This document shows, one piece after another, positions 2,053-15,548 of a stretch of DNA of 20,283 bases. The notes beneath the pieces were generated by a model, which saw nothing but the letters and a program-made list of their open reading frames with translations, made no database searches and was not told the DNA's origin. This DNA is from a virus: positions 1-20,283 of the IMG/VR virus record IMGVR_UViG_3300027784_000071. The stretch is one strand, 5' to 3'. The position numbers and the translations under genes are program-made. Each line of letters opens with the position of its first letter. Position 1 is the stretch's first letter.

Positions 2053-2056
2053 TAAA

Positions 2057-3262
2057 ATGGAAAGGACAACCACACCACTCAGGATTCCTGACGCCATAAA
2101 CTGTACTGCCTCCTCTAACTTCACCCAAGTTCCTAACGAAATATTAAGGAACCCCAGCCTATCACCAAAGGCAAAAGGTATTCTATGCCTGTTGCTATCC
2201 AATAAGAACGGTTGGCATAGTCACGTAGCTGCTATCACAAAAATGATGAACGCTGGAGAAAGGGCCATCCGCACAGGTTTGTCAGAATTGGAGGAGCACG
2301 GTTTGCTAATGCGATTAAAGTATAGGGACAAAAGCACCAAAAAATACCGTGGTGTGCTATGGTGCTACACAGACCAGCCCGGGGAATATAATCTGGAAGA
2401 AAAGGAGATCCTTGGCATTCTTGACAAACATGAATTAGAATTATATGATGGCTCCACAAGTGGGTTTTCCGAACGTGGATTTTCCGAACGTGGAAAACGG
2501 AGCACTAATAATACTAATAGAAAAAATATTAATAATAATAAGAAGAATATGGTGAAATCACAAAACAGTGAAAACAGTGGCCATATAACTTCAGCTATGT
2601 TTGATAAGTTTTGGAAGCTATACCCAAGGAAGGTAGATAAGGGGAAGGCCAAAACAAAATGGGAACAAATTTGTAGCAAGCCTACCAAGGAGCGCCCCAC
2701 TTGGAAGGAGGTGAAGTCAGCCATTCGTTCCCAACGGGAAAGTGAGCGTTGGCAAGAGATAAAATACATTCCCCATCCTACCACATGGTTGAACCAACAG
2801 AGATGGCTTGATGACCCAGCCGAAATGAAACCTCGCGGCGGTAAACCCTCAGAACATCCAAAAGAAACCCCTCAAGAAGACCCCCATACATTAATCAAAT
2901 CAGAATTCAAAGACCCAGACACAATAAGGGTATTCACTGAAAACTGCTACAAACCATTCGAACCGCTTTTCAACGGTGTAAACAAATCAGTAATGACCCA
3001 AGCCCTCATAAACCTATACTTAGATGTATCAGCTCAGCAACAAAGAAACCTTCCCAATAACCTGCGTGGGCTATTGCCTGGCCCCTTTGATGTAATAAGG
3101 GGTTATGCGGAATGGCTTGAGGGTAATAGCTGGGTGACCGATATATCTGTCAAATTGCTGTCCGTAGACCACACCCTGTTCCATAAGTTTAGGAGGCACG
3201 AAGCTACTAAGGACAATTCAGAGCGTGACCCGTTAACGGGCAAATCTTATATGAGAGGATAG
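2057..3262 (+). CDS. Replication initiator / replisome-organiser protein with winged helix and helicase-loader-like C-terminal domain
   Basis: 401 residues. Residues about 22-105 form a winged-helix domain of the phage replication-protein type: FTQVPNEILRNPSLSPKAKG, LLLSNKNGW, then a recognition-helix region GERAIRTGLSELEEHGLL and a wing. Residues 130-175 are a low-complexity, Asn/Lys-rich linker. A second conserved block (about 181-252) reads FDKFWKLYPRKVDKGKAK and later PHPTTWLNQQRWLDD, a module seen in many Firmicute phage replication proteins. The C-terminal 100 residues, including LPNNLRGLLPGPFDVIRGYAEWL, are not recognised. Between the DNA-binding half and the C-terminal half the gene holds 15-base tandem repeats and an A+T-rich stretch, the arrangement of lambda O. 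By analogy the N-terminus would bind the repeats and the C-terminus recruit the helicase encoded next. The family call is good; the loader role is inferred. Confidence 0.8.
   Translation: MERTTTPLRIPDAINCTASSNFTQVPNEILRNPSLSPKAKGILCLLLSNKNGWHSHVAAITKMMNAGERAIRTGLSELEEHGLLMRLKYRDKSTKKYRGVLWCYTDQPGEYNLEEKEILGILDKHELELYDGSTSGFSERGFSERGKRSTNNTNRKNINNNKKNMVKSQNSENSGHITSAMFDKFWKLYPRKVDKGKAKTKWEQICSKPTKERPTWKEVKSAIRSQRESERWQEIKYIPHPTTWLNQQRWLDDPAEMKPRGGKPSEHPKETPQEDPHTLIKSEFKDPDTIRVFTENCYKPFEPLFNGVNKSVMTQALINLYLDVSAQQQRNLPNNLRGLLPGPFDVIRGYAEWLEGNSWVTDISVKLLSVDHTLFHKFRRHEATKDNSERDPLTGKSYMRG
2454..2552 (+). other. Candidate replication origin inside the initiator gene (iteron-like repeats plus A+T-rich segment)
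   Basis: A perfect 15-base tandem repeat, TTTTCCGAACGTGGA, occupies 2465-2479 and 2480-2494. The second copy runs into AAA, giving inverted arms TTTTCC (2480-2485) and GGAAAA (2492-2497). CCAC/GTGG arms (2454-2463) lie just upstream. From about 2505 to 2552 the sequence is almost pure A/T with scattered G or C (runs such as AATATTAATAATAATAAG). Iterons followed by an unwinding-prone segment, within the initiator gene and between its domains, is the lambdoid origin layout. In protein terms the repeat encodes FSERG twice, inside a linker with little structural constraint. Confidence 0.55.
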
Positions 3263-3276
3263 GAGGTAATTAATAC

Positions 3277-4866
3277 ATGAGAGATGAACAGGAATTCTTT
3301 GAGAGGCGCATAGTAACCGGCATGATTGTTAGCACAGACTATTTAGATAGGATAAACCGGTTCTGGGACTCAACCCTATTAGAATCCCCTGAAGTAAAGC
3401 TAATTACTGACTGGTGCCTGGACTACTATGAGAAATATAACAGTGCCCCGGACAGTAACATTGAATCAATATATATGGAGCACCTAAAGCAAGGGGGCAT
3501 CCATAAAACTGACGCTCAATATATTGAGGCGCTGCTGGCGGGGTTAAGTGATGAATATGGTAGGGGCACTCAATTCAACTCAGCCTACCTTTATGACCAG
3601 ACCGTGAAATACCTAAAGACCCGGGAGCTGGAAAGGCATAATCAAGAAGTTCAGGCCTTAATAGATGTAGGTAAGGTAGAGGAAGCGGAGCAGCTTGCCC
3701 AAGGTTTCACCCCAACAGTAGCAATAGAGGCCAGCAGCGGTATAGACCTTTCCAGTGAGGAAGCCCTGGAAATGGTGGAAAGGGCTTTTAATGAAACCAG
3801 TCAGCGGGTGCTTGATTACCCGGGAGCCTTGGGCGATATGTGGAATGAACACCTTATTCGGGGTGGGTTTTTCACCCTCCTTGCCCCTGAGAAGCGTGGT
3901 AAAACATTTATGATGTTAGAACTGGCCTTGCGTGCTATTAGGCAGCGGGCAAACGTAGCCTTTTTTGAAGCAGGGGACATGACCGAAAGCCAACTACTCA
4001 GGCGGGTTTGCGTATATATTTCCCGGCGCTCAGACCGTGAAAAGTACTGCCAGGAACGGTTCATACCAGTAGGGGACTGCTCCCACAATCAGCTTGATAC
4101 CTGTGACCGGCAGGATAGGAACTGTGACCATGGCGTATTTGAAGGCATAGACTCCCAAGCCTTTTATACGAACCCAGAGCAGTTCATAGACCAAGAAACC
4201 CTTCAGGGGAAATGGGAGGAGTTCCCAGATTATGAACCTTGTGACAGTCATAGCTGTAAGGACAGGCGGGGCAGCATATGGGTAAAGAAGGTTAAGAAAA
4301 GCACACCCCTCAGCGGAAAACAAGCCAAGGAGCAAATGAAAAAGTTTTTTGAGCGGTACCGGCGGCGGTTTAAGTTAAGCTCTTGGCCCGCAGGATTCTT
4401 GACTACCACAGAGATGCGCCGGTGCCTGGACGAGTGGGAGCGGGTTGACGGGTTCGTGCCCGATATTATTGTAATTGATTATGCTGACTTGCTCTCCGCA
4501 GATGATGGGGCAGTAAACGAATTCAGGCACCGTCAAGACCACGTCTGGAAGAACCTGCGGGCACTATCACAAGAGCGGCACGCACTACTCGTTACAGCTA
4601 CCCAGGCAGACGCAGATAGCTACAAGCGGGGCCGGTTATCAATATCTAACTTCAGTGAAGATAAGCGTAAACTTGCTCATGTAACTGCCCAATATGGGTT
4701 AAACCAAGACCCCTTAGGCAGGGAGAAAAGGTTAGGGCTTATGCGTATAAATGAAATCGTAGTTAGGGAAGGGGAATTCTCTGCCGATAGGGAGGTTTAT
4801 GTTTTACAAGACCTGGCAGCAGGCAGACCGTTCCTGGAAAGCTATGCCAACCCCACGCATAAATAA
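3277..4866 (+). CDS. DnaB-like replicative DNA helicase with a Cys-rich (probably zinc-binding) insertion
   Basis: 529 residues; ATG 3277 follows a TAGGAGGT ribosome binding site. The first 150 residues are helical, consistent with a DnaB N-terminal/linker region (LLESPEVKLITDWCLDYYEKY). The RecA-fold ATPase follows: Walker A is APEKRGKT (203-210), with Ala in place of the usual first Gly, then VAFFEAGDMTESQLLRR (227-243). Walker B is IIVIDYADLL (397-406), and LLVTATQADADSYKRG (437-452) resembles the DnaB sensor/arginine-finger area. Between Walker A and B, residues 255-335 hold six cysteines (C258, C268, C276, C283, C322, C327) and histidines, an insertion unlike ordinary DnaB. It would unwind DNA ahead of the polymerase, loaded by the initiator encoded immediately upstream. 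The helicase call is strong; zinc binding by the insert is inferred. Confidence 0.85.
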   Translation: MRDEQEFFERRIVTGMIVSTDYLDRINRFWDSTLLESPEVKLITDWCLDYYEKYNSAPDSNIESIYMEHLKQGGIHKTDAQYIEALLAGLSDEYGRGTQFNSAYLYDQTVKYLKTRELERHNQEVQALIDVGKVEEAEQLAQGFTPTVAIEASSGIDLSSEEALEMVERAFNETSQRVLDYPGALGDMWNEHLIRGGFFTLLAPEKRGKTFMMLELALRAIRQRANVAFFEAGDMTESQLLRRVCVYISRRSDREKYCQERFIPVGDCSHNQLDTCDRQDRNCDHGVFEGIDSQAFYTNPEQFIDQETLQGKWEEFPDYEPCDSHSCKDRRGSIWVKKVKKSTPLSGKQAKEQMKKFFERYRRRFKLSSWPAGFLTTTEMRRCLDEWERVDGFVPDIIVIDYADLLSADDGAVNEFRHRQDHVWKNLRALSQERHALLVTATQADADSYKRGRLSISNFSEDKRKLAHVTAQYGLNQDPLGREKRLGLMRINEIVVREGEFSADREVYVLQDLAAGRPFLESYANPTHK

Positions 4867-4872
4867 ACCAAC

Positions 4873-4881
4873 CGTATAATA
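4873..4881 (+). promoter_or_regulatory. Possible weak promoter: -10 element only
   Basis: CGTATAATA here matches the last nine bases of the three strong promoters exactly and lies just before the ribosome binding site AAAGGAGG (4887-4894) of the gene at 4903. The upstream part of the shared motif is absent, and the -35 position (4852-4857, CCCACG) is poor. It may be a degraded copy, a weak internal promoter or chance. Confidence 0.35.
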
Positions 4882-4902
4882 TGGAGAAAGGAGGGGAGAG
4901 AT

Positions 4903-5199
4903 ATGCCAGTAATCTATAATTTAACAGACAACCCGTTTCGGCGGAATTTCTGGACAATAGAAAACATGAAAGCAGACCCCAGAACGATAGCAAAAATAAA
5001 GCATTGGGAAGAAGACCGGGCAAGAGCAAAAGAAGTCTACTGTAACCTGTGTGAAAGGTCTGTTGGTGGGGAGAAGAAGTTTAACACAATCCTATTTATA
5101 ATATTGCTATTACTATTCGGAATAGGGGCAGTTATTTACCTTGCTTATTACCTTTTCCTCCAAGCTAAGAAATGCCCCATCTGTAAAAACAAATTATAA
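4903..5199 (+). CDS. Small membrane protein with two CxxC pairs flanking the membrane segment
   Basis: 98 residues, ATG 4903 behind AAAGGAGG. Residues 1-45 are polar and charged (WTIENMKADPRTIAKIKHWE). A first pair, CNLC, is at 47-50. A strongly hydrophobic segment spans about 61-86 (NTILFIILLLLFGIGAVIYL, then AYYLFL), and a second pair, CPIC, is at 91-94, followed by a short Lys-rich tail. Two CxxC pairs at this scale usually make one zinc ribbon. Here they are split by a stretch long enough for one transmembrane helix, so they could meet only if the segment folds as a tight hairpin, or between subunits. There is no signal peptide cleavage site. It is not recognised as a named family. It sits between the helicase and another small membrane protein, so an anchor tying replication to the membrane is possible but unproven. 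Confidence 0.7.
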   Translation: MPVIYNLTDNPFRRNFWTIENMKADPRTIAKIKHWEEDRARAKEVYCNLCERSVGGEKKFNTILFIILLLLFGIGAVIYLAYYLFLQAKKCPICKNKL

Positions 5200-5212
5200 A
5201 GGAGGGCTCAAA

Positions 5213-5356
5213 ATGATTCAATGGACTATGTTATGGGCACCATCAGGAAGGGACGTTTTACACGACCCACAACCAGATTGGCTCTGGATAGCCGCCTTTG
5301 TATTTTACCTTGGGATGGTAGCTGTGGGTTATTATCAATACAGCAGAAAGCGATAA
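5213..5356 (+). CDS. 47-residue single-pass membrane protein
   Basis: ATG 5213 is chosen because AAAGGAGGG lies 6-8 bases upstream, just after the previous stop; a longer reading from TTG 5141 would run through the end of the preceding gene. The product begins MIQWTMLWAPSGRDVLHDPQ and has a single hydrophobic helix, about residues 23-42 (DWLWIAAFVFYLGMVAVGYY). The positively charged end YSRKR would stay in the cytoplasm by the positive-inside rule, leaving the N-terminus outside. No family is recognised. It is the last gene before promoter B. A holin is a conceivable alternative for such a short protein, but position among replication genes and absence of a nearby lysin argue against it. Confidence 0.6.
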   Translation: MIQWTMLWAPSGRDVLHDPQPDWLWIAAFVFYLGMVAVGYYQYSRKR

Positions 5357-5376
5357 AAGGTGAAGTATGGGGGGTC

Positions 5377-5405
5377 TTGATGGTAATTAAGTTTTAACGT
5401 ATAAT
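5377..5405 (+). promoter_or_regulatory. Promoter B (repeated phage promoter), start of the long radical-SAM/polymerase operon
   Basis: TTGATG (5377-5382), 17-base spacer, TATAAT (5400-5405). It is the copy closest to the sigma-70 consensus. Between GGTAAT and CGTATAATA it shares GTTTTAACG at the same offset with the promoter at 17872. The gene downstream begins at 5446, giving a leader of about 34 bases. No further promoter of this type is visible until 17872. Confidence 0.85.
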
Positions 5406-5445
5406 AGAGCAGTAGTAAAAAACAAAAAACAAAGGAGTGTAACAA

Positions 5446-6015
5446 ATGACACTGAAGAAGAAAGACGTTGTCCATGCCGCAAAGGAGCTTAACAAGGTGC
5501 TGGGCCTGGACCCGGAAATTGATACCGACCAGCCCAGAAAGCAGTTAGAGGAATTGGTAATAGAGGCCACGGAACTAATTGAACCAGCAGATGAGTTCTC
5601 AGAGCAGACTGACGCCGTTATCGCCGCACTTTTAGGAACCGGGGAAACCACACCTGAACCACCACCCGCACAGCCAGATGATTGGGATGAGGCAGTTAAC
5701 TCCCACACCCCAGAACCGGCACCAGAACCAGAACCGGCTCCAAAACCTAAAGAGGCACAGAAGGGTAAAAAAGGCACGTTCCCGCCCTCAATAGGTATTA
5801 CCAGAACAGAAGCCGCCGCACAAATACTACAGGGAAAAGATAAAATAACAATAACGGAGTGGGTAGCACAAACCGACGCGGCATATATAAATGAAGGGGG
5901 TTCTTCCAATACCAAGGAAAGCCGGTACTCAGTAAACATGGCTATCCGCGCGTTGCGGGGGTTCGGAGCAATAGAAGTAGAAGGGGAAACCGTGAAAAAC
6001 CTATTCAAAAAGTAA
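5446..6015 (+). CDS. Unknown protein with proline-rich linker and winged-helix-like C-terminal domain
   Basis: 189 residues; ATG 5446 follows AAAGGAGTG. It has three parts. The N-terminal helical acidic part (1-65) begins MTLKKKDVVHAAKELNKVLG and includes QLEELVIEATELIEPADEF. A Pro/Glu-rich linker (about 66-110) contains PEPAPEPEPAPKPKEAQKGK and is probably extended and flexible. The compact C-terminal part (about 115-189) has TRTEAAAQILQGKDKITITE, then WVAQTDAAYINEGG, then SVNMAIRALRGFGAIEVEGE. A helix, a Thr-led strand/helix, a second long helix and a final hairpin is a winged-helix pattern, so it may bind DNA. It is the first gene of the operon leading into the radical SAM cassette. It could be a regulator or a DNA-targeting adaptor for those enzymes; neither is shown. 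Confidence 0.7.
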   Translation: MTLKKKDVVHAAKELNKVLGLDPEIDTDQPRKQLEELVIEATELIEPADEFSEQTDAVIAALLGTGETTPEPPPAQPDDWDEAVNSHTPEPAPEPEPAPKPKEAQKGKKGTFPPSIGITRTEAAAQILQGKDKITITEWVAQTDAAYINEGGSSNTKESRYSVNMAIRALRGFGAIEVEGETVKNLFKK

Positions 6016-6032
6016 GGGAAAGGGGTTAACCC

Positions 6033-7061
6033 GTGAAAACTTATAAGTCCGCCTTGGGCATGAGGGGTGATATGTTATATTGCCCCCTTCCCCTCAGCAT
6101 AGACAGCTACTGGACATGCGAACCGAATTGCCTTCACTGTTATTCTCGCAGGATTAACCGCACATGGGGGGAAGACTTCCGTATGGCCGATGTAGAAGCT
6201 GTTAAGAAACAACTCCTCAGCGCCAAGGGCAAAAGCCCACTACACCAAGCCATACGTCAAAAGAAGACGTTGCGGTTAGGTAACAGAACAGACCCCTTCC
6301 AGAACTGTGAAAGGGAGTATGGGGTTTCTACCGCACTGACTAAGTTCCTTATGTCCCAAAAATGGGACACGGTGATACAAACTAAGTTCCCACAGCGCGC
6401 TTGGGAAATGACAGGGCTGGGAAAGTATAGCACCGTCATGGCTGTGATAATGGTAGGGCTGGAGGAGGATTGGCACACACTTGAACGGGAACAAACAGAA
6501 AACCCGGTTGAACGTATCAAGACTCTACAAAAGATTAAGGCTGCCGGGTTCCGTGTGGGTGTGAATGGGGAACCTTTTATTCCAGGCTACCACGGGGTGG
6601 AACAATTCCAGACTACGGTAAAATTGCTCAAGCAGCACGGTATAAACCGCTTCAATGTGTATAACCTTCACATCAACGACCTTGTATTAAAGAACCTCCA
6701 TGGCGCGGGGCTTGACATTGAGAAAATTTGGTATATGAATCAAGATGCCCCATGGAAGAAAACCCTGAAGAAGCTGTTAGCAATTGCTGACCGGCACGGC
6801 ATAATATTAGGTTGCCCGGACTTCGTGAACAGTGGTTGGGAAGATGTTCAGAAGAGTAATACTTGCTGTGGCCTTGACGTAGAGAACCCGTGTACTTGGA
6901 ATACGCACCACTTCAAGCGTGCTATACAACAGGGCAAAGACCCCTTACAAGTATGGGATGGCGTAGGGGACTATGAAGAAGGGGTTAAGATTATAGACGG
7001 TTCCCTCAAAGATATGTATACAATGAAGGATGTGTCAGGAAAGGGCTGGAAATTGCTATGA
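6033..7061 (+). CDS. Radical SAM protein 1 (SPL/COG1533-like)
   Basis: 342 residues from GTG 6033, behind GGGAAAGGGG. The radical SAM cluster motif CX3CX2C is CEPNCLHC (C29, C33, C36); these cysteines bind the [4Fe-4S] cluster that cleaves S-adenosylmethionine to a 5'-deoxyadenosyl radical. LRLGNRTDPFQNCE (80-93), IMVGLEEDW and GFRVGVNGEPFIPGYHG (172-188) fit strands of the partial TIM barrel in the spore-photoproduct-lyase-like group. Near the C-terminus is a second Cys group (C261, C278, C279, C287) with NTCCG, followed by an AIQQGKDPLQVW stretch. Related elements occur in the radical SAM genes at 7885 and 11754, so the three look like paralogs. Its stop overlaps the next start (ATGA). The family is firm; the substrate is unknown, with DNA lesion repair or base modification as the main options. 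Confidence 0.85.
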   Translation: MKTYKSALGMRGDMLYCPLPLSIDSYWTCEPNCLHCYSRRINRTWGEDFRMADVEAVKKQLLSAKGKSPLHQAIRQKKTLRLGNRTDPFQNCEREYGVSTALTKFLMSQKWDTVIQTKFPQRAWEMTGLGKYSTVMAVIMVGLEEDWHTLEREQTENPVERIKTLQKIKAAGFRVGVNGEPFIPGYHGVEQFQTTVKLLKQHGINRFNVYNLHINDLVLKNLHGAGLDIEKIWYMNQDAPWKKTLKKLLAIADRHGIILGCPDFVNSGWEDVQKSNTCCGLDVENPCTWNTHHFKRAIQQGKDPLQVWDGVGDYEEGVKIIDGSLKDMYTMKDVSGKGWKLL

Positions 7062-7879
7062 AAGAGATTATCCTCAACGACACCCCTATAGAAGAATATG
7101 ACGGCATTCACGTCAAGCGGGAAGACCTTTGTGCCCCTCCAGGCGCTCCGCCCTTCAGTAAGATAAGGGGATTGGTAAAACACCTGGAAAAGCTAAAACA
7201 ACAGGGGTTTGAGGGGGCAGCCTATGTAGAAACCTCAGTGAGTATGGCTGGGTGGGGGTTGGCTTGGGCTTGTTACCATCTGGGGCTGAAATGCCTGATT
7301 TTCAACCCTATATACAAAAACCCGGCCCCGCTGCTTCAGCATCATCGTTGGCAGTGGGAACGGTGGGGGGCTGAATTGGTAGACATCCCGGCAGGTAGGG
7401 CAAAAGTAAACTACTATACCGCCCAAAAACAGGTGCCTCAGGGGTTCCGGTTACTACCTTTGGGGCTGCCCCTATCGGAAACCCTTTCTGAAACCTATAC
7501 CGTGGCTCGGGATTGCGTTGAGAACTATCGTAGCATTGTGATATGCGTGGGCAGTGGAACGATTGCCGCTGGGGTATTTCAGGCAACCACCCCCGGGCAA
7601 ACCCTGTATGGGGTAATGTGCCGCTCCGGGGAGTTGGGTAGGAAAAGGCGGCACGTCATGGGGGATGTAATTTTCCCCGGCCTAAGTAAAGGGGAACTGC
7701 GGTTGATTGATAAAGGTTGGGAATACGCTCAACCTTGTGAAGTGAAAACCCCGTTCCCGTGCCATGATTATTATGACACTAAAGCATGGGAATGGCTGGT
7801 ACAAAATAAAGAATCGTTAGAACCCCCCATATTGTTCTGGAATATAGGGGCATTACCGGGGGGCTGGCCACATAAATAA
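7058..7879 (+). CDS. PLP-dependent fold-type II protein, ACC deaminase / D-cysteine desulfhydrase-like
   Basis: 273 residues, coupled to radical SAM 1 through an ATGA overlap. HVKREDLCAPPGAPPFSKIR (18-37) matches the start of ACC-deaminase and tryptophan-synthase-beta-like enzymes, where a Lys in a GxKxRKLE context forms the Schiff base with pyridoxal phosphate; K35 is the candidate. ETSVSMAGWGLAWACYHLGL (58-77) corresponds to the substrate loop and following helix. VICVGSGTIAAGVFQ (161-175) is a phosphate-binding Gly-rich loop. The ending ILFWNIGALPGGW matches the family's usual terminal FxHTGGxPxxF strand, with Asn in place of His. It is about 60 residues shorter than typical ACC deaminase but has both ends, so it looks minimal rather than truncated. 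Such enzymes deaminate, eliminate or exchange side groups of amino acids. In this cassette it may supply or trim an amino-acid-derived group, which is inference. Confidence 0.75.
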   Translation: MKEIILNDTPIEEYDGIHVKREDLCAPPGAPPFSKIRGLVKHLEKLKQQGFEGAAYVETSVSMAGWGLAWACYHLGLKCLIFNPIYKNPAPLLQHHRWQWERWGAELVDIPAGRAKVNYYTAQKQVPQGFRLLPLGLPLSETLSETYTVARDCVENYRSIVICVGSGTIAAGVFQATTPGQTLYGVMCRSGELGRKRRHVMGDVIFPGLSKGELRLIDKGWEYAQPCEVKTPFPCHDYYDTKAWEWLVQNKESLEPPILFWNIGALPGGWPHK

Positions 7880-7880
7880 A

Positions 7881-7885
7881 GGAGG
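7881..7885 (+). promoter_or_regulatory. Ribosome binding site that conflicts with the GTG start of radical SAM 2
   Basis: GGAGG occupies 7881-7885. The only standard in-frame start near it is GTG at 7885, which shares its first base with this site. The codon at the normal distance (8 bases, position 7894) is ATA. No other ATG, GTG or TTG appears in frame until about 79 codons in, so either the GTG is used at an abnormal spacing or ATA is the start. Confidence 0.6.
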
Positions 7886-9309
7886 TGTCAAAAATAGATT
7901 ATTCAGAACTGCGCAAAGAAGTCAGTAGAATAGTTCCGGGCCTTCGCCCATTTTTCAAAGCTACCGGTAAGGTTCAAGCGGTCAAGGAAAAAGGCAGAAA
8001 AAAAGACTACAGCCAATTCCACCTGCTTGACCAAGAGTGGAAGGAGCAAAGGCGCTTACTTAAGACTGAACAAATAAATACCTTCCTGGAAATATCCCTG
8101 CGTGCCCAAGCATGCCCTATGCCTTTTAATGGCGACGTATGGGACGGGTTGAATTGCCCGTTCGGTTGTATATATTGTTATGCTAATGCTTTTAGGGCCA
8201 GCTTATATACAGCCTTCTTTGATAATTCTAAGACCCTTGGACTGCGGCACTGTAACCCGGATTATTACAAAAGGGAAATGGAAAAAATGCTACCTTTAAG
8301 GGGCAAAGACCCCCACGGGCTTTACGACATCCGGAAAGCGTTCGCCATGGAAATACCACTGCGCTTGGGCATACGCTTTGAGGATTTTAATCCAGAGGAA
8401 CGCCGGGCCGGTATAAGCCTGGAAATGTTAAAATACTTAAAAGATATTGAATACCCGGTTATGATAAACACCAAAGCAGGCTTAGTAGGGGAGGATGAAT
8501 ACGTCAAAGCCCTTGGGGACAACCCTGCCGGTGCAGCGGTTCACATTACCCTTACATCATCTAACGACCGTGTAAACCGTAATATAGAACCGGGTGCTCC
8601 AAATTATTCAGAACGCATGACGGCGGCCAAAAACCTAATTGATGCGGGTGTGCGGGTTGTAGCAAGGATTGAGCCTTATTTATTCTTGGTTAATGATGAC
8701 CCGGATGAAGTGGAAAAGTATATTCAAGACATGAAAGAAATTGGGGTCAAAAACATAACCTTTGATACCTACTCTTACTCAGCGAACAACCCCGGTATAA
8801 GACAAGATTTTATCAACCGGGGCATAGACTTTGACCGTCTTTTTACAGCCGGGTGCGATAGCCAAAGGTTGGGCAGCACCCTATTAGGAGCCTACATGGA
8901 CAAGTTCCGGGAACACGGTATTTCCTGCTCTACGTTTGACTTGGGGAACGTTCCTAATAATGACCAGTCCATATGCTGCGAAGTAGGGGACTGGTTTAAA
9001 GGGGGCTGGAACTACGGTTGCACGGTCATGGCTGTGCGTTTCATTACCCAGAACAAAGGTAAACCGGTGACTTGGGGGCAATACAGAGATTGGGTTATGG
9101 AAAATGGGGGCTTTTTATCCCCGGGTTTGGAGCGGGAGGTTCATGAATTGTGGAATATAGAAGGGAGTAATGTGGCCTACAGCCCTATCTGGGCCGGGGG
9201 TGTGGTTCCCGTAGGATGGGATGAAGGGGGTGTGGTTTGGTCGTATATTCCAGCCTCAGATGAAAGGAAAGAACTAATAAACGCACTGAAAGTAGGGGTG
9301 AAGAAATGA
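7885..9309 (+). CDS. Radical SAM protein 2 (SPL/COG1533-like)
   Basis: 474 residues if GTG 7885 is the start; ATA 7894 is a possible alternative because the GGAGG site overlaps the GTG. The CX3CX2C motif is CPFGCIYC (C91, C95, C98) followed by YANAF. LRLGIRFEDFNPEERRAGIS (159-178), YPVMINTKAGLV (190-201), AAVHITLTSSNDRVNRNIEP (217-236) and VRVVARIEPYLF (256-267) are typical of spore-photoproduct-lyase-like barrels. ITLTSSNDRVNRNIEP resembles the lyase segment ISIsTxdpeLxrxlEP. The C-terminal third has SICCEVGDW (362-370), C379, NKGKPVTWGQYRDW (390-403) and a final GGVVPVGWDEGG strand region, features shared with radical SAM 3 and partly with 1. The stop overlaps the next start (ATGA). Radical chemistry is well supported; the substrate is not visible from the sequence. 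Confidence 0.87.
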   Translation: MSKIDYSELRKEVSRIVPGLRPFFKATGKVQAVKEKGRKKDYSQFHLLDQEWKEQRRLLKTEQINTFLEISLRAQACPMPFNGDVWDGLNCPFGCIYCYANAFRASLYTAFFDNSKTLGLRHCNPDYYKREMEKMLPLRGKDPHGLYDIRKAFAMEIPLRLGIRFEDFNPEERRAGISLEMLKYLKDIEYPVMINTKAGLVGEDEYVKALGDNPAGAAVHITLTSSNDRVNRNIEPGAPNYSERMTAAKNLIDAGVRVVARIEPYLFLVNDDPDEVEKYIQDMKEIGVKNITFDTYSYSANNPGIRQDFINRGIDFDRLFTAGCDSQRLGSTLLGAYMDKFREHGISCSTFDLGNVPNNDQSICCEVGDWFKGGWNYGCTVMAVRFITQNKGKPVTWGQYRDWVMENGGFLSPGLEREVHELWNIEGSNVAYSPIWAGGVVPVGWDEGGVVWSYIPASDERKELINALKVGVKK

Positions 9310-10154
9310 CAAGAATAAAAGCCAGTAGCAGGATAGAGGGTATTTTTGCCCACGCGGTAGCCATGGACAACCGGGGCATGAAGAATATAATTCACTGTGT
9401 GGGTTCCAGTGTTTATATACTGAATTTTGATTATAGCATGATATTGAAGTTTTCCCTGAGGAAGAGTGAGGTTTCCTTCCCTTCCCCTGTATCCTTTAAT
9501 GCTAACGAATATGATTCCCCGGACTTTTCCTTTAACGTAGATGAGCATGGTGGGGAGATAATATTCTATACCGCTTCAAAAGAATATGGTCGCAAAAAGA
9601 TTTGCCGGACACCCAAATCCGGGCCTGATGCTAAAGACGTTGCTAAACTATACCGGGGCTTGAAGAAGACCGGGGAACAAGGGCCATACTTATTTCACCT
9701 ATCAGAGGAGTGTGTGCCCCTATTGGAGGAAGGTCTTTCCCATACTGAAATATCGGTAGAAAATTCTAAGTTGGTATTGAGACAACGTAATGTATACACG
9801 GGAACGCTCATAGAAGTAGAGCCGTCTCGGGGCAAAGGGTTCTTTACAATAGATAATTTGCCTGAGAACCTTCCACCAATAGCACTAAAGACAAAGGACT
9901 TTATGAGCCTATTCGCTGCGCGTAAAGCTCTATCGTTTATACCTACCGAAGACTTCCTGATGGTAAAGGATTCCAAAAAAGAAGACTTTGAAGGTATATT
10001 AGCACTGTGTAAATATGATATGGTTATTGACCTTCACCAAGGTGAAGACGAGGAAGGAGGGGAGGACAATGGGCGGAAAGAGCCGGAAGAGAGGGCAGGT
10101 AAGCAAAAAGCTAATAGACCGGATAAAGCAAAACAACCCCAGCGGAGGAAGTAA
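9306..10154 (+). CDS. Unknown protein, possibly sliding-clamp-like fold, with basic tail
   Basis: 282 residues, ATGA-coupled to radical SAM 2. No family is recognised with certainty. The pattern is beta-rich with two similar halves. Residues about 15-100 have short strands (NIIHCVGSSVYILNFDYSMI; FSFNVDEHGGEIIFYTAS). Residues about 127-240 show helix then strands (LFHLSEECVPLLEEGLSHTE; KLVLRQRNVYTGTLIEVEP), then IALKTKDFMSLFAARKALSF followed by further strands. Helix-then-three-strands units, repeated, are what beta and PCNA clamps look like, so a divergent clamp fold is possible; a certain clamp is encoded nearby at 13298. The last 40 residues are highly charged and basic, ending KAKQPQRRK, and could bind nucleic acid. 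The final 86 bases overlap the next small gene in another frame. Alternatives include a scaffold for the flanking radical SAM enzymes. Confidence 0.65.
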   Translation: MTRIKASSRIEGIFAHAVAMDNRGMKNIIHCVGSSVYILNFDYSMILKFSLRKSEVSFPSPVSFNANEYDSPDFSFNVDEHGGEIIFYTASKEYGRKKICRTPKSGPDAKDVAKLYRGLKKTGEQGPYLFHLSEECVPLLEEGLSHTEISVENSKLVLRQRNVYTGTLIEVEPSRGKGFFTIDNLPENLPPIALKTKDFMSLFAARKALSFIPTEDFLMVKDSKKEDFEGILALCKYDMVIDLHQGEDEEGGEDNGRKEPEERAGKQKANRPDKAKQPQRRK

Positions 10155-10221
10155 TACTGAGGATGCCCCTAAAAAGAAGTCAAACTGCGCCCCGGTAAGG
10201 AAGGACGGGCCTTTGTTATGA
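10069..10221 (+). CDS. 50-residue basic protein overlapping its neighbours
   Basis: ATG 10069 is preceded by AAGGAGGGGAGG, a very strong ribosome binding site, which decides this start over a longer in-frame reading. The product begins MGGKSRKRGQVSKKLIDRIK and is rich in Lys, Arg, Ser and Asn, with a Pro/Gly-containing middle (NNPSGGSNTEDAPKKK); it is probably disordered apart from one short helix. It overlaps the 3' end of the previous gene by 86 bases in a different frame and its stop overlaps the next start (ATGA). It could be a small nucleic-acid-binding protein, or simply a coupling peptide that re-initiates ribosomes toward the gene at 10218. No family is recognised. Confidence 0.5.
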   Translation: MGGKSRKRGQVSKKLIDRIKQNNPSGGSNTEDAPKKKSNCAPVRKDGPLL

Positions 10222-10979
10222 TTATGAGTGAAGTGGTGGAATATATACAAAGGGCAAAACTGTTAGGAATCATACCCAATTTTTGGTTGAGTGAGGATTA
10301 CCTTGCCATACAAGATGCCCAGCTACGTAGCAACGGAAAGGTTATTTGGGTAGAAGAAGGGGAGTGGGCCATATTTCCGCCCTTGCCTATAGATTCCAAC
10401 GAACTCAAAAAGGAAAGTTGCCCGCCCCTTAAAGTGTGGAGTGACTTTGAAAACCTGTGCCCGGGAGATAATGCGGAATTCTTGGATTGGGAATACACCT
10501 ATGCCGCTGATAATTTCAACGCTATGGATGGGAAAAAATGGTCCACTTTCCGCAAAAATTCTCGCAAGTGGATAAAGGGTAGGGACTGGGACTATACGCA
10601 TCACCCTGCTCCAAATATTTGCGTAGAAATGTTATTACTGAAGTGGTTGGAAAGTAAACCAGTGGGTGAAGTAGTACACGACCAAGATTCAATGGTATGG
10701 TTCCTGTTTGAAAGTAAGCGGCGGGGGTTCCTATACGATAAGGATAAGTTGGTAGGAGTAAACGTGTGGGACAGCAATGACCCTTTATTGATGTATAGGT
10801 ATTGCGTCACAGACCCAGACGAGCCTTACCTTAACGAGTTTGCCCGGCTGCTATTTTACAGAAGTGTTCCTGGAAGGTTGGTGATTGATGGAGGTTGTTT
10901 AGGGAACCCGGGGTTGGAACGGTTCAAGGATAAGCTCAACCCCGTTAAAAAGCGGGCAATGTATTCAAGAGCGATATAA
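10218..10979 (+). CDS. Probable acyltransferase of the DUF2156 / GNAT-fold group
   Basis: 253 residues, start coupled by ATGA to the preceding small gene; ATG 10224 two codons later is also possible. Residues 87-120 (EFLDWEYTYAADNFNAMDGK, then KWSTFRKNSRKWIKG) match the pattern EYxYxxxxLxxLxGKKxxxKRNxxNxF of DUF2156 (phosphatidylglycerol lysyltransferase C-terminal-like) proteins. The C-terminus, VIDGGCLGNPGLERFKDKLN (222-241), matches that family's final NxExDLGxxGLRxxKxxxxP motif, with Gly-Gly-Cys where relatives have Arg-Glu-Asp-like residues. Middle strands WFLFESKRRGFLYDKDKLVG fit a GNAT-like sheet. Family members move acyl or aminoacyl groups from CoA or tRNA to amines and lipids. It is soluble and has no membrane domain, unlike MprF. 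Lying between two radical SAM genes, it may add a group to an intermediate they create; that is inference. Family assignment is moderately sure. Confidence 0.6.
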   Translation: MIMSEVVEYIQRAKLLGIIPNFWLSEDYLAIQDAQLRSNGKVIWVEEGEWAIFPPLPIDSNELKKESCPPLKVWSDFENLCPGDNAEFLDWEYTYAADNFNAMDGKKWSTFRKNSRKWIKGRDWDYTHHPAPNICVEMLLLKWLESKPVGEVVHDQDSMVWFLFESKRRGFLYDKDKLVGVNVWDSNDPLLMYRYCVTDPDEPYLNEFARLLFYRSVPGRLVIDGGCLGNPGLERFKDKLNPVKKRAMYSRAI

Positions 10980-10995
10980 AAAGGAGTGAGTAATA

Positions 10996-11457
10996 ATGAA
11001 ATACAAAGGAGAAAACTGGTCAGGGGCAGAAGTTAGAGCGTATTTCAAAGAGCGGTTCCCCGGCCTCAGGGTAACTACCAACAAGCCCTATAACAAAGGG
11101 GCATCTGCTATAGACCCGGACACGGGGGTGGTGTTACTTGAAGGCAAAAAAAATTTCATGCTGATAGACAAGGCTACGGCACCCGACACAGAAACCCTAA
11201 AGTTTGAATACCACAAATTAATAAACATGCCCCGAACAGTAGACTTGAAGAACCGCCCAGAGAAGTTATTCACGAAGGCTCTTTCCTATGTAATAGAAGC
11301 CATGGAACTGTCCGGTTTGAATCACCGCCCCCGTTTCATAGTTGGAGAGGACGGGTTCCCCACAAGCATCAAGTTGGGGGGCTTTGAATTCGACCTTCAT
11401 GGTATGAAAATTAAGGAGGGTACCAAGGGTGGACAAAGAAAAAAAAGAAAACAGTAA
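10996..11457 (+). CDS. Unknown protein of the radical SAM cassette
   Basis: 153 residues; ATG 10996 follows AAAAGGAGTG. It begins MKYKGENWSGAEVRAYFKER and continues into FPGLRVTTNKPYNKGASAID, then strand-rich VVLLEGKKNFMLIDKATAPD. A helical middle, PEKLFTKALSYVIEAMELSG, follows, then NHRPRFIVGEDGFPTSIKLG and a Lys/Arg-rich end (GGQRKKRKQ). The alternating alpha/beta pattern suggests a compact globular domain with a basic, possibly nucleic-acid-binding tail. There are no cysteines, no Walker motifs and no membrane segment. Its last 29 bases overlap the next gene in another frame. I do not recognise the family. Position between the acyltransferase-like gene and radical SAM 3 implies co-expression with that pathway. 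Confidence 0.7.
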   Translation: MKYKGENWSGAEVRAYFKERFPGLRVTTNKPYNKGASAIDPDTGVVLLEGKKNFMLIDKATAPDTETLKFEYHKLINMPRTVDLKNRPEKLFTKALSYVIEAMELSGLNHRPRFIVGEDGFPTSIKLGGFEFDLHGMKIKEGTKGGQRKKRKQ

Positions 11458-11779
11458 AAAGGAAAAGCGGTTACTGCCCGGGGACTTTCAGCGCAAGATA
11501 AAATATGAAAGCCTGGATGACAACCCAAAGGAAATAGAACAAAGCCGGGGCAGGTTATTTGAATTCCCTGAGGACTTAAAAGGGTTCCAATTTGAAGACC
11601 GGGACTTCCTGGTGTTCTACTTTGACAACAAGGAAGACTACACCACCGTGCTAAAACAATTCGGTATAGCAAAGCGGGGGCTGAGTCACCCGGAGTTAGA
11701 TACAGACAAGTTGGTCAAATTGGTTAAATGGTATAAGGCAGCCCGGGAAAGGGGTGAGAAGATTGAGGAGGAAGAATAA
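11429..11779 (+). CDS. Small acidic/basic unknown protein of the radical SAM cassette
   Basis: 116 residues from GTG 11429, which has AAGGAGGG 8 bases upstream inside the end of the previous gene. The N-terminus is extremely charged (MDKEKKENSKKEKRLLPGDF). The core reads DFLVFYFDNKEDYTTVLKQF, then GIAKRGLSHPELDTDKLVKL, and ends in Glu residues. The FDNKEDYxxxLxxFGI segment is reminiscent of the FxxxEDYxxFxxxI strand-helix unit that occurs in some phage DNA-modification-associated and ParB-like proteins; I consider this similarity weak. There are no cysteines or catalytic motifs. It overlaps radical SAM 3 by 26 bases, so the two are probably made together, and an accessory or partner role to that enzyme is plausible. 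Confidence 0.65.
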   Translation: MDKEKKENSKKEKRLLPGDFQRKIKYESLDDNPKEIEQSRGRLFEFPEDLKGFQFEDRDFLVFYFDNKEDYTTVLKQFGIAKRGLSHPELDTDKLVKLVKWYKAARERGEKIEEEE

Positions 11780-13268
11780 TAACGGGGGCCAAACGCAATA
11801 CTTGGAAATATGTGAGGCTTGCGGGGTTTGTAAAAGTGTAGATGTTCCCCCGGGAACGCTGTGTGCCTCTTTAAGTAAACAAGCCCGGATACAGTTTGAA
11901 TACCCGGAAACCTTCCCACAAAACTATGGGGGGTGCCGGTTCTCTTCTGACGCATTTGATTGTGCCATACCTATAGCAATAGACAGTCACTCCGGTTGCT
12001 CTTATAATTGCCTTTACTGCTTTTCCAACAACCTTCAAAGGGCATTTGACCGCAACAACAGCATACTAAAGATTGCGCAGGAAGGGGGTTCCCTATATAA
12101 GGAATGGCCTATTAAGCAGCTGGAAAAGTTCTTGGCCCGGGAATATCAAGATGAACAAAGTCAGGCCATGTATACTTTAATGGACCGTGGTGCCCCAGTA
12201 CAATTAGGGGCATTGGGAGACCCCTTTGATGACTTGGAAATACACAGCGGCTGGGCCAAGAAGGCTATTCCCTTGTTTATAAAATACAAACAGCCCGTAC
12301 GCATAAGCACTAAAGGGGGCAAGGCGCTACAAAACAAAGAATACCTACAGCTTATTGAGCAAAGCCCGGAACAATTTTGGTTCGCGTGGAGTATTATATG
12401 TAACGATGATGAAAGGATATCAAAGGTGGATATAAATGCCCCGGTAACTTCTGAGCGGCTACAAGCAATGAAGCAGCTCACCGATATGGGGAGCCGGTGT
12501 AGCTTGAGGTTCCGGCCATTCCTGCCGGGGTTGAGTGATAGCTATCCCGGGGAACCGGAGGCATGGCGGGTGCTAATAGAGCGGGCACATGAAGCCGGAG
12601 CTGAGGCGGTAAGTTTTGAATACATCTTTTTATCTTCCTTTCTTACTCCCCGGCAAAAGGCTATGTATCAGCTGATGTTCCGTGCTATGGATTGGCCCGA
12701 CTTCGGTGAATGGTGGAATTCCCAAAGTAACCCAGCAGAGGCTTGCCGCAGGGCCACCCGGGATTACAAGCATGATATGACCAAAAAAGTCTACGACACT
12801 TGTAAGGGCTTGGGTATGCGGTTCGGGATAAGCGACCCACATTTCAAGGAACTTAACGATACCGGCTGCTGTTGCGGTATGCCGGAAGAGGATGAGTGGT
12901 TCGGTAACTGGAGCCGCCGCCAAACAACGGAGGTTCTGGTTCAAGCACGTAGGGCTTACGAAAAGGGTGAACCCCGCTTATTCACTTATAATGACTGGCG
13001 CCCCGAGTGGGCTCATAGGGTACCCCTTACGACTATGGTTAGTGCCAGCAACTGGCATAATTACCGCCGCAAAAAGTTCAAAACATTCGGAGATAAAATG
13101 AGGGACATATGGAATAATCCTAAAGCTGCCCGGGGGCCATATCAATACTTCGGCAAAGTCCTGGTACCCGTAGGGAAAGATCGCCACACTGATGACCTCA
13201 TATATGAGTATCAACCTTGGTATTCGGGGAAGGAAAAAAAGACAATATACAAAAGCCTTACCCAGTAG
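11754..13268 (+). CDS. Radical SAM protein 3 (SPL/COG1533-like) with extra N-terminal Cys cluster
   Basis: 504 residues if GTG 11754 is the start; TTG 11763, with AAAGGGG 8 bases upstream, is equally plausible. The radical SAM motif is CSYNCLYC (C82, C86, C89). LGALGDPFDDLEIHSGWAKK (151-170), PVRISTKGGKAL (181-192), FAWSIICNDDERISKVD (210-226) and CSLRFRPFLPGLS (249-261) are barrel strands like those in proteins 1 and 2. An additional N-terminal group CEACGVC plus C37 (C20, C23, C26, C37) could bind zinc or a second Fe-S cluster. The C-terminal region has TGCCCG (370-375), EKGEPRLFTYNDW and KVLVPVGKD, elements shared with radical SAM 2. Its gene ends 29 bases before the sliding clamp start, with no promoter between, so it is tied to replication. 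The substrate is unknown. Confidence 0.85.
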   Translation: MRRLRRKNNNGGQTQYLEICEACGVCKSVDVPPGTLCASLSKQARIQFEYPETFPQNYGGCRFSSDAFDCAIPIAIDSHSGCSYNCLYCFSNNLQRAFDRNNSILKIAQEGGSLYKEWPIKQLEKFLAREYQDEQSQAMYTLMDRGAPVQLGALGDPFDDLEIHSGWAKKAIPLFIKYKQPVRISTKGGKALQNKEYLQLIEQSPEQFWFAWSIICNDDERISKVDINAPVTSERLQAMKQLTDMGSRCSLRFRPFLPGLSDSYPGEPEAWRVLIERAHEAGAEAVSFEYIFLSSFLTPRQKAMYQLMFRAMDWPDFGEWWNSQSNPAEACRRATRDYKHDMTKKVYDTCKGLGMRFGISDPHFKELNDTGCCCGMPEEDEWFGNWSRRQTTEVLVQARRAYEKGEPRLFTYNDWRPEWAHRVPLTTMVSASNWHNYRRKKFKTFGDKMRDIWNNPKAARGPYQYFGKVLVPVGKDRHTDDLIYEYQPWYSGKEKKTIYKSLTQ

Positions 13269-13280
13269 AATAAAAAATGA

Positions 13281-13287
13281 AAAGGAG
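13281..13287 (+). promoter_or_regulatory. Ribosome binding site selecting GTG 13298 for the sliding clamp
   Basis: AAAGGAG here lies 10 bases before the in-frame GTG at 13298. The upstream ATG at 13277 precedes this site and has no good ribosome binding site of its own, so the longer reading, which would add MKRSCSV, is less likely. Confidence 0.7.
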
Positions 13288-13297
13288 TTGTTCGGTT

Positions 13298-14317
13298 GTG
13301 AAAATCAACAAATCAGATTTGCAAGGCGCGTTGGAAAAGGTAAAGCCGGGGCTGGCCAACAGGGAATTAATTGAACAGTCTACAAGCTTCGCCTTCATGG
13401 GGGACAGGGTTGTTACTTATAATGATGAAATCAGTATATCACACCCGGTAGAAGGGCTGAATGTAACCGGGGCCATCAAAGCTCAGGCGCTTTATGCCTT
13501 CCTCAGTAAAGTAAAGCGGGAAGAGATTGACGTAGAATGGGAAGAAAATCAAGTTGTAATCAAGGCCGGTAAGTCTAAAGCGGGGTTGGTATTTGAGCAG
13601 GAGGTAAGGCTACCAGTGGAAGAGGTGGGGGAAATTGGCAAGTGGAAGAAGCTCCCCGCAGATGTATTAGACGGGTTAAAGTTCTGCTACCCATGCTGTT
13701 CTAAGGATATGAGTCGGCCCATTCTAACCTGTGTTCATGTTGAAGAGGATAAAGTGGAAGCGTCAGACTCCTACCAGATTGTAAAATATACGCTGGGCAA
13801 AAAGGTTCCTGTCAAGCGTTCATTAATACCTGCCGCAGCGGTGAGGGAACTACTAAAATATGACGTCAAAGAAGTGGCGGAAGGGAGTGGTTGGTTACAC
13901 TTCAAAACAGAAGATGGAACGGTATTCTCCTCACGGGTATTTGATGGGGACTACCCAGAAGTAGACGAGTTCCTTGCGTTTGAGGGGGTGGAAATACCTT
14001 TCCCCAAAACAGCCTCTTCCGCCCTTGAGCGGGCACAGGTGTTCTCAAAGAGTGATTTCAGCACGAATGATGTGGCTGTGGTAGTAGTTGAGGTGGCGGA
14101 GGGTGAGATTAAGTTTACCGCTCAGGACGAATACGGATGGTTTGAGGAAACAATAAAGACAAAATACAAAGGGGAGGCTGTCAGGTTTACCACCAGTGTA
14201 GAATTCTTAATCAACCTATTGGAGCAATCCCCGGCCTGTATATATGGTGAGGACAGGATTAAGTTTACCGGGGAGAATTGGGAACATGTAGCAGCAGCTA
14301 CAGCGGGCAGGGAGTGA
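13298..14317 (+). CDS. dnaN: DNA polymerase III beta-type sliding clamp
   Basis: 339 residues from GTG 13298. The N-terminus VKINKSDLQGALEKVKPGLA matches the beta clamp's first strand-helix unit. Three repeats of the clamp fold are visible: domain 1 to about 110; domain 2 from KLPADVLDGLKFCYPCCSKD to about 235, with RPILTCVHVEEDKVEASDSY, the highly recognisable G/RPxLxxVxxxxxxxxAtDxyr segment; domain 3 from about 236 to the end. RVFDGDYPEVDEFL matches the clamp RLIDGxFPdYxxvi motif. The protein would encircle DNA as a dimer and tether the polymerase encoded downstream. It is slightly shorter than bacterial DnaN (about 366-380). It lies 4 bases before the uracil-glycosylase/exonuclease gene and two genes before the polymerase domain. 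The call is strong; the exact partner is inferred from synteny. Confidence 0.88.
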   Translation: MKINKSDLQGALEKVKPGLANRELIEQSTSFAFMGDRVVTYNDEISISHPVEGLNVTGAIKAQALYAFLSKVKREEIDVEWEENQVVIKAGKSKAGLVFEQEVRLPVEEVGEIGKWKKLPADVLDGLKFCYPCCSKDMSRPILTCVHVEEDKVEASDSYQIVKYTLGKKVPVKRSLIPAAAVRELLKYDVKEVAEGSGWLHFKTEDGTVFSSRVFDGDYPEVDEFLAFEGVEIPFPKTASSALERAQVFSKSDFSTNDVAVVVVEVAEGEIKFTAQDEYGWFEETIKTKYKGEAVRFTTSVEFLINLLEQSPACIYGEDRIKFTGENWEHVAAATAGRE

Positions 14318-14321
14318 TTAG

Positions 14322-15548
14322 GTGAAGGGCTTTTTTAATATAGAACAGACCCAGACCAAAGGCGGGGAAACTAAAGGCAATTCCTGCGCCTCCTGTGGGC
14401 TTTACAGGTTTGCCTTAACTCCAAAGATGGAGCCATACGGAGGGTTCAAAAAAGGTATTATGGTGATTGGGGAAGCTCCCGGTGAGGATGAAGACCGGCG
14501 GGGCAGACCATGGCAGGGCAAGATGGGCAGGGTTTTGCAAAGAAAATACAAGCAACTCGGGTTGGACTTGTTTGAGGATTGTGTGAGTCTGAATGCCGTG
14601 AACTGCCACCCCACCGATAAAAAGGGGGCAAACCGGGGTCCAACCGACCAAGAAATTGCCTGCTGCCGGCCAAAGGTTATGCGTATCATAGAGCAATACC
14701 AACCTGAAATAATTATACTACACGGGGGGGTTCCTACTACCTCTCTCATAGGGCATAAATGGCGCGGGGACTTCGGCGGTATAATGAAATGGCGAGGTTG
14801 GACTATCCCAGACAGGGAATATAATGCTTGGGTTTGCCCAACCTTCCACCCTTCCTTTATCGAACGGCAGGAAGGGGCCAGTGAAGCGGAAGTAATTTGG
14901 GCAAGGGATTTGGAACAAGCCTTTTCCCGGCAAGGGGTTCCTTTTCCTAACCGAGGGGAACCGGAAGCGTGTGTTGAGGTAAGTAATGATATAGAGGGGG
15001 TCTTAATGAAGCTGCTGGACCACCCATACATGACGGCCTTTGATATTGAAACCACGGGACTGAAGCCCTATAACACAGACGCTCATAAAATAGTTACAAT
15101 TTCCTTCTGCCAGAGCCCTGATAAAGCATACGCAATACCTTTCCCTACTGAAAAGAAGCACCTGCGCATATTGAAAACACTATTGAAAAGCCCGGGTGTG
15201 CCTAAGATAGCGGCCAATATGAAGTATGAGGACAACTGGTTACAGGTATTGTATGGGATAAAGGTTTACCCGTGGTTGTTTGATACTATGCAGGCGGCTC
15301 ATATATTAAACAACCACCCCGGTATAACAAGCCTGAAATTCCAGAGTTATGTAAGGTTTGGGGTGCTGGGTTATGACGGTGAGGTTTCCCCTTACCTGAA
15401 AAGCGGTAACTCTCACGGGGTGAATAGAATCACGGAATTGGTAGAGAACGAAGAATGGTTTCAAAAACTATTACTTTATAACGGGGTGGACAGCCTAATG
15501 ACTTACAGATTAGCCATATCACAAATGCGGGAGTTGAACCTATTATGA
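14322..15548 (+). CDS. Family-4 uracil-DNA glycosylase fused to DNA polymerase I-type 3'-5' exonuclease domain
   Basis: 408 residues from GTG 14322, behind GGAGTG. Residues about 20-205 are a family-4 (Fe-S) uracil-DNA glycosylase. CASC is at 22-25; IMVIGEAPGEDEDRRGRPWQ (46-65) holds the water-activating and uracil-binding motif 1; NAVNCHPTDK follows at 91-100. IACCRPKVM, then EIIILHG and PTFHPSFIE (173-181), supplies the family HPS loop. C22, C25, C114/C115 and C172 are candidate cluster ligands. Residues about 235-405 are a DEDD exonuclease: FDIETTGL (240-247; D241, E243), NMKYEDNW (299-306; D304) and YNGVDSLMTYRL (386-397; D390), the Exo I, II and III motifs of Pol I proofreading domains. 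The gene ends in ATGA overlap with the polymerase domain gene. So the exonuclease that normally belongs to the polymerase chain is attached instead to a base-excision enzyme. Both domain calls are strong. Confidence 0.9.
   Translation: MKGFFNIEQTQTKGGETKGNSCASCGLYRFALTPKMEPYGGFKKGIMVIGEAPGEDEDRRGRPWQGKMGRVLQRKYKQLGLDLFEDCVSLNAVNCHPTDKKGANRGPTDQEIACCRPKVMRIIEQYQPEIIILHGGVPTTSLIGHKWRGDFGGIMKWRGWTIPDREYNAWVCPTFHPSFIERQEGASEAEVIWARDLEQAFSRQGVPFPNRGEPEACVEVSNDIEGVLMKLLDHPYMTAFDIETTGLKPYNTDAHKIVTISFCQSPDKAYAIPFPTEKKHLRILKTLLKSPGVPKIAANMKYEDNWLQVLYGIKVYPWLFDTMQAAHILNNHPGITSLKFQSYVRFGVLGYDGEVSPYLKSGNSHGVNRITELVENEEWFQKLLLYNGVDSLMTYRLAISQMRELNLL

Follow-up and report, generated by a model that had tools for sequence, protein, structure and literature searches.

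A conserved radical SAM gene cassette in a phage replication operon is a probable DNA base-hypermodification system

The replication operon in IMG/VR virus record IMGVR_UViG_3300027784_000071 contains, at 6.0–13.3 kb, a cassette of genes encoding radical S-adenosylmethionine (radical SAM) enzymes, a clamp-like protein and a predicted acyl- or aminoacyltransferase. We interpret this cassette, with a probability of about 0.72, as a clamp-associated, radical-SAM-based system that hypermodifies bases of phage DNA and thereby allows escape from host restriction. The window analysed here is the entire record (20,283 bp), which is itself a fragment. Several observations underlie this interpretation: the synteny of the cassette, its all-or-none inheritance, its equivalence in position to known modification genes and its mutual exclusion with GTP cyclohydrolase I (GCH-I) and DpdA; the variation of tailoring genes around a fixed core, together with the predicted clamp and transferase folds; and the conservation of the radical SAM proteins above that of clamp and helicase, inteins at catalytic cysteines of rSAM2, and a recurring terminal motif. 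The conserved core consists of rSAM1, rSAM2, g282 (PCNA-like), sm68 and the transferase, and is listed here with the two genes that border the cassette:

5446–6015, + strand: g5446, the upstream border, in an identical position in cassette-bearing and cassette-less phages
6033–7061, + strand: rSAM1, core gene, CX3CX2C motif (C29, C33, C36), NCBIfam PA0069-type match at 5e-11
7885–9309, + strand: rSAM2, the most conserved cassette gene, CX3CX2C motif (C91, C95, C98)
9306–10154, + strand: g282, PCNA-fold clamp-like protein of 282 aa (AlphaFold pLDDT 88), in cassette-bearing phages only
10069–10221, + strand: sm68, small basic protein with an invariant N-terminal GGKSRK...G, a disordered linker and a short hydrophobic C-terminal motif
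10218–10979, + strand: predicted DUF2156/MprF-like tandem-GNAT acyl- or aminoacyltransferase of 253 aa (AlphaFold pLDDT 95)
13277–14317, + strand: DnaN-type sliding clamp (DNA_pol3_beta_3, 7e-5), the downstream border, shared with cassette-less relatives

Searches of IMG/VR yielded 74 rSAM2 loci and 23 transferase loci, and the order rSAM1, variable enzymes, rSAM2, g282, sm68, transferase, DnaN clamp recurs in about 60 viral contigs (nearly all of the mapped loci), with genes that overlap or nearly touch in the gene maps. Such recurrence is more than chance. To this we add relatives retrieved with polymerase and uracil-DNA glycosylase (UDG)-exonuclease queries, and thus chosen regardless of the cassette: among the 64 neighbourhoods that share the replisome and extend far enough upstream (counted without removing repeats of the same contig), the core is complete in 12 and entirely missing from 51, and one has a lone transferase relative. 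Where an earlier, sequence-only reading of this DNA had asked whether homologues of the cassette co-occur or are scattered, the answer is that they co-occur and are inherited as a unit. Tree-free distance correlations indicate that the cassette genes are only moderately co-inherited, not clearly above the neighbouring clamp, and we therefore make no claim of independent transfer.

Cassette-less relatives usually carry other genes between g5446 and the clamp. Among 43 distinct cassette-less contigs this position is empty in six, holds 7-deazaguanine genes in 26, DNA methyltransferases or a pair of 5-hydroxymethyldeoxyuridine (5-hmdU) DNA kinase (HMUDK) and thymidylate synthase in eight, and other genes in three, such that 34 of the 37 alternative occupants are DNA-modification genes. 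The domain matches in this slot include GCH-I (9e-69), QueC (4e-50), HMUDK_hel (4e-71) and DpdA/TGT (3e-37), and the methyltransferases are of the N6/N4, C5, D12 and Dam types. Published work has shown that the DNA of phages encoding DpdA and preQ0 genes contains 7-deazaguanines, and that these bases block restriction (PMC6884629). As the cassette sits where its relatives keep DNA-modification genes, it is probably a way of chemically modifying phage DNA, a prediction that is well supported by genomic context.

The content of longer records is consistent with this prediction. Neither DpdA nor GCH-I was found in any of 36 cassette-bearing records, a few of which are near-identical to one another, whereas among 36 cassette-less relatives the same searches were positive in 24 (Fisher 3e-10). 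HMUDK (PF18723) was likewise found in none of the 36 cassette records, in a search without a positive control, though the model does match a cassette-less contig, L203, at 4e-71. The thymidylate-synthase fold (PF00303) occurs in three of the 36, which does not amount to a 5-hmdU hypermodification pathway. The sequence-only reading had remarked that the window shows no hydroxymethylase or base kinase, and this holds in these longer records as well. The cassette lacks detected genes of the 7-deazaguanine and 5-hmdU pathways, the latter with the control-less kinase search just described, and the data support a view of it as a unit whose genes are inherited together and which takes the place of known DNA-modification pathways at one dedicated site in the replication operon.

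Two core genes, g282 and sm68, suggest how such a system might be tied to replication. The AlphaFold monomer model of g282 has the two-domain fold of a PCNA-type sliding clamp, with 9-1-1 and PCNA clamps as the best Foldseek matches (E 7e-9) and 471 PDB chains at E<1e-3; by sequence, no family matched in Pfam, PHROG and NCBIfam scans, nor was similarity to PCNA or 9-1-1 clamps detectable. Because the operon already encodes a DnaN clamp, g282 would be its second clamp-fold protein, and it differs from PCNA and 9-1-1 clamps in standing beside that separate DnaN-type clamp and in being confined to cassette phages. The gene had been counted among ‘four small unknown proteins’, a description that no longer fits a 282-aa protein with a PCNA-type fold, while for sm68 the start has moved from 10015 to the ATG at 10069 (MGGKSRK...), which is conserved in a 54-sequence alignment where GGKSRK and a following glycine are invariant. 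The tails of sm68 end in [GPQ][LFI][LFI] in 24 of 58 sequences against 4.9 expected from shuffles. A terminal [GP][LF][LF] motif, putatively clamp-binding, is also enriched at the UDG-exonuclease N-terminus (80/113 against 5.3), in a methyltransferase-like protein of related cassettes (12/19 against 3.4) and in rSAM1 (11/52 against 2.8), whereas RFC, SSB and RecA show no such enrichment. At the UDG-exonuclease N-terminus it reads GFF in 80 of 113 relatives, where it is probably clamp-binding.

There is perhaps one chance in five that g282 and sm68 are simply auxiliary replication factors, and that the modification pathway is made up of the radical SAM and transferase genes alone. PCNA is a replication factor, and the phage clamp loader could load either the DnaN clamp or g282; nonetheless, neither g282 nor sm68 was found in cassette-less phages with the same replisome. 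We consider it rather unlikely that the modification is made on the nucleotide (dNMP or dNTP) before replication instead of on DNA afterwards. Some phages do build modified dNTPs ahead of polymerization, yet this cassette encodes its own PCNA-fold protein, general family scans matched no nucleotide kinase among its proteins, and the scarcity of the thymidylate-synthase fold given above points the same way.

The transferase model is matched by Foldseek to MprF (3e-11), 2HQY (1e-9), Sbb17 (4e-6) and FemX (4e-6), and the protein also matches 2HQY by sequence profile (6e-5). Fold and sequence relation together mark it as a DUF2156/MprF-type tandem GNAT, as modelled, in agreement with the GNAT/DUF2156-like acyltransferase proposed from the sequence. 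MprF and FemX are aminoacyl-tRNA users. This tandem-GNAT fold is common to the aminoacyl-tRNA-dependent MprF/DUF2156/FemX/Sbb17 transferases, whose known members have phosphatidylglycerol, peptidoglycan or streptothricin-type molecules as their acceptors, whereas the cassette transferase is a short, soluble phage protein. Such relatives, acting on lipids and peptides, and the many radical SAM enzymes that have RNA or peptide substrates, might suggest that the cassette acts on RNA, a ribosomal or polymerase protein, a small molecule or a lipid, and that its place in the operon is an accident of module exchange. Given a DNA-clamp fold within the cassette and DNA-modification genes as 34 of the 37 alternative occupants of its slot, we regard this as improbable.

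The three radical SAM proteins called from the sequence were recovered here: the CX3CX2C motif is found in rSAM1, rSAM2 and rSAM3, and its invariance in relatives of rSAM1 (52/52) and rSAM2 (49/49) places these in the radical SAM superfamily. Pfam Radical_SAM matches rSAM2 above its cutoff, and rSAM1 and rSAM3 below it. rSAM1 and rSAM2 match the PA0069 and Rv2578c families at 5e-11 to 8e-16, and the scores of all three proteins (34–58 bits) lie far under the curated cutoffs of these families (360–430), so that they cannot be counted as members. Their assignment to a spore photoproduct lyase (SPL)-like group holds insofar as these nearest families are ones that we take to be of the SplB-type (‘DNA repair photolyase’) group; it does not extend to the SPL family proper, as Pfam and NCBIfam scans gave only generic Radical_SAM and PA0069/Rv2578c matches and no curated SPL model. 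A lesion-repair role, in which SPL-like enzymes brought to the fork by the clamp-like protein repair UV or other base damage, was the alternative offered by the sequence-only reading and has this family resemblance and the UDG-exonuclease of the same operon in its favour, but is very improbable because the slot otherwise holds DNA-modification genes, no SPL family matched, and repair would be expected neither to replace or mutually exclude 7-deazaguanine pathways nor to call for a transferase and for tailoring enzymes that are exchanged between phages.

Other features set the radical SAM proteins apart from their neighbours. Further cysteines are invariant in the same relatives: C17 and CC278-279 in rSAM1, C77 and CC364-365 in rSAM2. 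In pairwise comparisons among the 26 phages that carry every gene, identity averages 0.545 for rSAM2 and 0.474 for rSAM1, whereas DnaB and the clamp average 0.297 and 0.271, respectively. Inteins split rSAM2 precisely at one of two cysteines of the CX3CX2C motif, C91 or C98, and in one case at both.

These inteins were seen in contigs L064 (8292–11128, with both sites), L008 (6761–9159), L027 (2966–5643), L051, L052, L060, L068, L070 and L072, and several are fractured, with N- and C-terminal halves in separate open reading frames (ORFs) and a homing endonuclease between them. The interrupted genes were not taken as introns because an Rfam scan of the window and six relatives found no match.

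Around the fixed core, the remaining genes vary. In the window they are:

7058–7879, + strand: pyridoxal phosphate (PLP) enzyme of fold type II (threonine dehydratase/ACC deaminase-like), a variable tailoring gene (PALP 2e-10; phrog_7093 1e-45)
10996–11457, + strand: g153, accessory and not core, with nine related ORFs in the first locus set
11429–11779, + strand: g116, accessory, adjoining rSAM3 and found elsewhere beside rSAM3 in contig L094 only
11754–13268, + strand: rSAM3, accessory, C-x-I-P...CX3CX2C with a C-terminal CCC, Rv2578c-type match at 2e-13

The PLP protein bears out the ACC-deaminase-like assignment made from the sequence: its PALP domain and a lysine (K35) that is invariant in 19 sequences are those of fold type II, and IlvA, L-serine dehydratase and ACC deaminase are its nearest PDB structures. 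Across 49 complete cassettes, a PLP gene is present in 22, a methyltransferase-like gene in 17, an aldo-keto reductase in 11, a D-amino-acid-oxidase-like gene in three and no tailoring gene in seven; in seven of the 49, a DUF362 protein and another radical SAM protein, by Pfam matches, replace rSAM1. The PLP gene thus belongs to a set of tailoring genes that can stand in for one another. Anti-restriction base modification under diversifying pressure would be expected to show this pattern, in which the core chemistry stays constant and the finishing enzymes are exchanged. The variant that replaces rSAM1 is seen in L020 (7439–9408; DUF362 7e-36) and seven other contigs, and its second radical SAM protein has the same C-terminal CCG motif. 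A QueE-like radical SAM gene (L030, 5839–6573, 1e-31) and, by eye, an RtcB-like gene (L006, 7942–9120) lie near or inside cassettes.

rSAM3 and g116 are a rare add-on. A query of viral contigs with rSAM3 returned no relative, and a full-length copy elsewhere is found only in L094. As its apparent matches in L008, L027, L051, L052, L060, L070 and L082 are N-terminal halves of intein-split rSAM2, rSAM3 was demoted to accessory. Of the base-modification pathway first proposed from the sequence, then, what stands is a co-occurring set, inherited as one unit, that most likely modifies DNA bases; the core is narrower than was thought, with an interchangeable PLP enzyme, and with rSAM3 and g116 only rarely added.

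Domain matches give the operon order as DnaB-type helicase, cassette, DnaN-type clamp, UDG-3'-5' exonuclease fusion, family A polymerase and clamp loader, followed by SSB- and RecA-like genes assigned via homology across relatives. The cassette does run in one unit into clamp, UDG-exonuclease and polymerase, and its genes, all of them open frames, are linked as had been described: by ATGA overlaps at 7058/7061, 9306/9309 and 10218/10221, by longer overlaps at 11429 and 11754, and at the remaining junctions by gaps of 5–16 nt. The UDG domain is fused to the exonuclease (14322–15548), with the polymerase domain in a separate gene.

In the mechanism that we envisage, two SPL-type radical SAM enzymes (here three) would open an unreactive C–H bond on a base in DNA, most likely at the thymine methyl or a ring carbon, yielding a handle attached through carbon, with no hydroxymethyl intermediate. 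An acyl or aminoacyl group would next be added by the MprF/FemX-type tandem GNAT, with aminoacyl-tRNA as a possible donor, and the interchangeable PLP, methyltransferase-like, aldo-keto reductase, FAD oxidoreductase and DUF362 enzymes may trim or vary the product between phages. g282 and sm68 would keep these enzymes on freshly replicated DNA, at the fork or behind it, and escape from host restriction would be the purpose. The full version of this scheme, a new hypermodification class in which clamp-bound radical SAM enzymes functionalize a base at carbon and the MprF-like enzyme transfers an amino acid to it from aminoacyl-tRNA, is tentative, and we put it at somewhat below even odds.

PLP, radical SAM and acyltransferase tailoring is known from other described hypermodification routes. 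Elp3 combines radical SAM and GNAT domains and acts at C5 of the tRNA wobble uridine. By analogy, both systems would place a carbon group on a pyrimidine with radical SAM chemistry and a GNAT, although the cassette has separate proteins, another GNAT family and another cysteine spacing, and Elp3 acts on tRNA. The 7-deazaguanine system (DpdA, FolE, QueD, QueE, QueC; PMC6884629) occupies the same slot in close relatives and presumably serves the same anti-restriction purpose; the cassette has no DpdA, GCH-I or QueC gene and no purine-insertion step, and is essentially exclusive with GCH-I and DpdA. Thymidine hypermodification from 5-hmdU in phages M6, ViI and phiW-14 (PMC6449724) is likewise a multi-enzyme pathway on DNA. 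In contrast to it, cassette phages have no 5-hmdU kinase match (in the control-less search) and hardly any thymidylate-synthase fold, and radical SAM enzymes are the invariant core. The CmoA/CmoX/CmoY system, in which a carbon handle at C5 of cytosine (5-carboxymethylcytosine) is then joined to an amino acid (PMC12783734), resembles the cassette in that sequence of steps, but uses carboxy-S-adenosylmethionine (Cx-SAM), a C5-methyltransferase and an ATP-dependent ligase, whereas family scans of the cassette matched no C5-methyltransferase or amide ligase. Campylobacter phages CP220 and CPt10, with 11–12 radical SAM proteins of unknown role, are the nearest published gene-rich parallel (PMC2853527).

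Several points weigh against a DNA-hypermodification role. One contig (L004/L187) has DpdA alongside cassette genes, the sole exception to the exclusion; the contigs are fragments, so that the genomes may hold further modification genes that escaped detection; a test of restriction-site (palindrome) avoidance failed to distinguish cassette phages from 7-deazaguanine phages, and its result against slot-empty phages, which are few, was not clear; and the terminal motif is a clamp-binding motif only putatively. In L004, a Vut_1 (YhhQ-type) transporter and the DpdA-like gene (1758–3547) lie beside the transferase end of the cassette, and this may be a double-modification phage.

The slot itself holds further variety. 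In L203, HMUDK_hel and thymidylate-synthase-like genes (2555–7278) make up a 5-hmdU-type pathway. Smaller combinations occur in L147/L202 (2512–5427), L193 (6526–8232), L210 (4135–6024) and L181 (5970–8035): the PLP enzyme adjoins, or is fused to, a DNA methyltransferase of the N6/N4 type, or such a methyltransferase accompanies a lone transferase relative. These may represent a further DNA modification that has not been described. Other occupants bear no known DNA-modification label (L194, 8038–9000; L234, 2808–3692; L248, 8252–8980); they include a different radical SAM family and a 242-aa protein, and are candidates for further modification systems.

Beyond metagenomic viral contigs the cassette is scarce. 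The transferase had no match in 50,697 deposited phage genomes, where the radical SAM proteins had remote matches only (23–30% identity over less than half their length), and even for the polymerase, the matches listed show no more than about 29% identity to cultured phages. In a set of 85,000 species genomes, rSAM2-g282-sm68-transferase turned up on a single 3.5-kb contig, which was binned with a Bacillota metagenome-assembled genome, and no close relative was found in plasmids. Our literature searches, with incomplete coverage of thymidine hypermodification papers, found no description of this gene combination.

If our interpretation is correct, uncultured phages of a widespread group protect their DNA with a base independent of the 7-deazaguanine and hydroxymethyl routes, radical SAM enzymes would be central tools of DNA hypermodification, and a sliding-clamp-like protein would be linked to DNA modification. 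Should the aminoacyl-tRNA reading also hold, substrates of translation would be linked to DNA modification. The occupants of this slot in the replication operon would then offer a way to find further DNA-modification systems.

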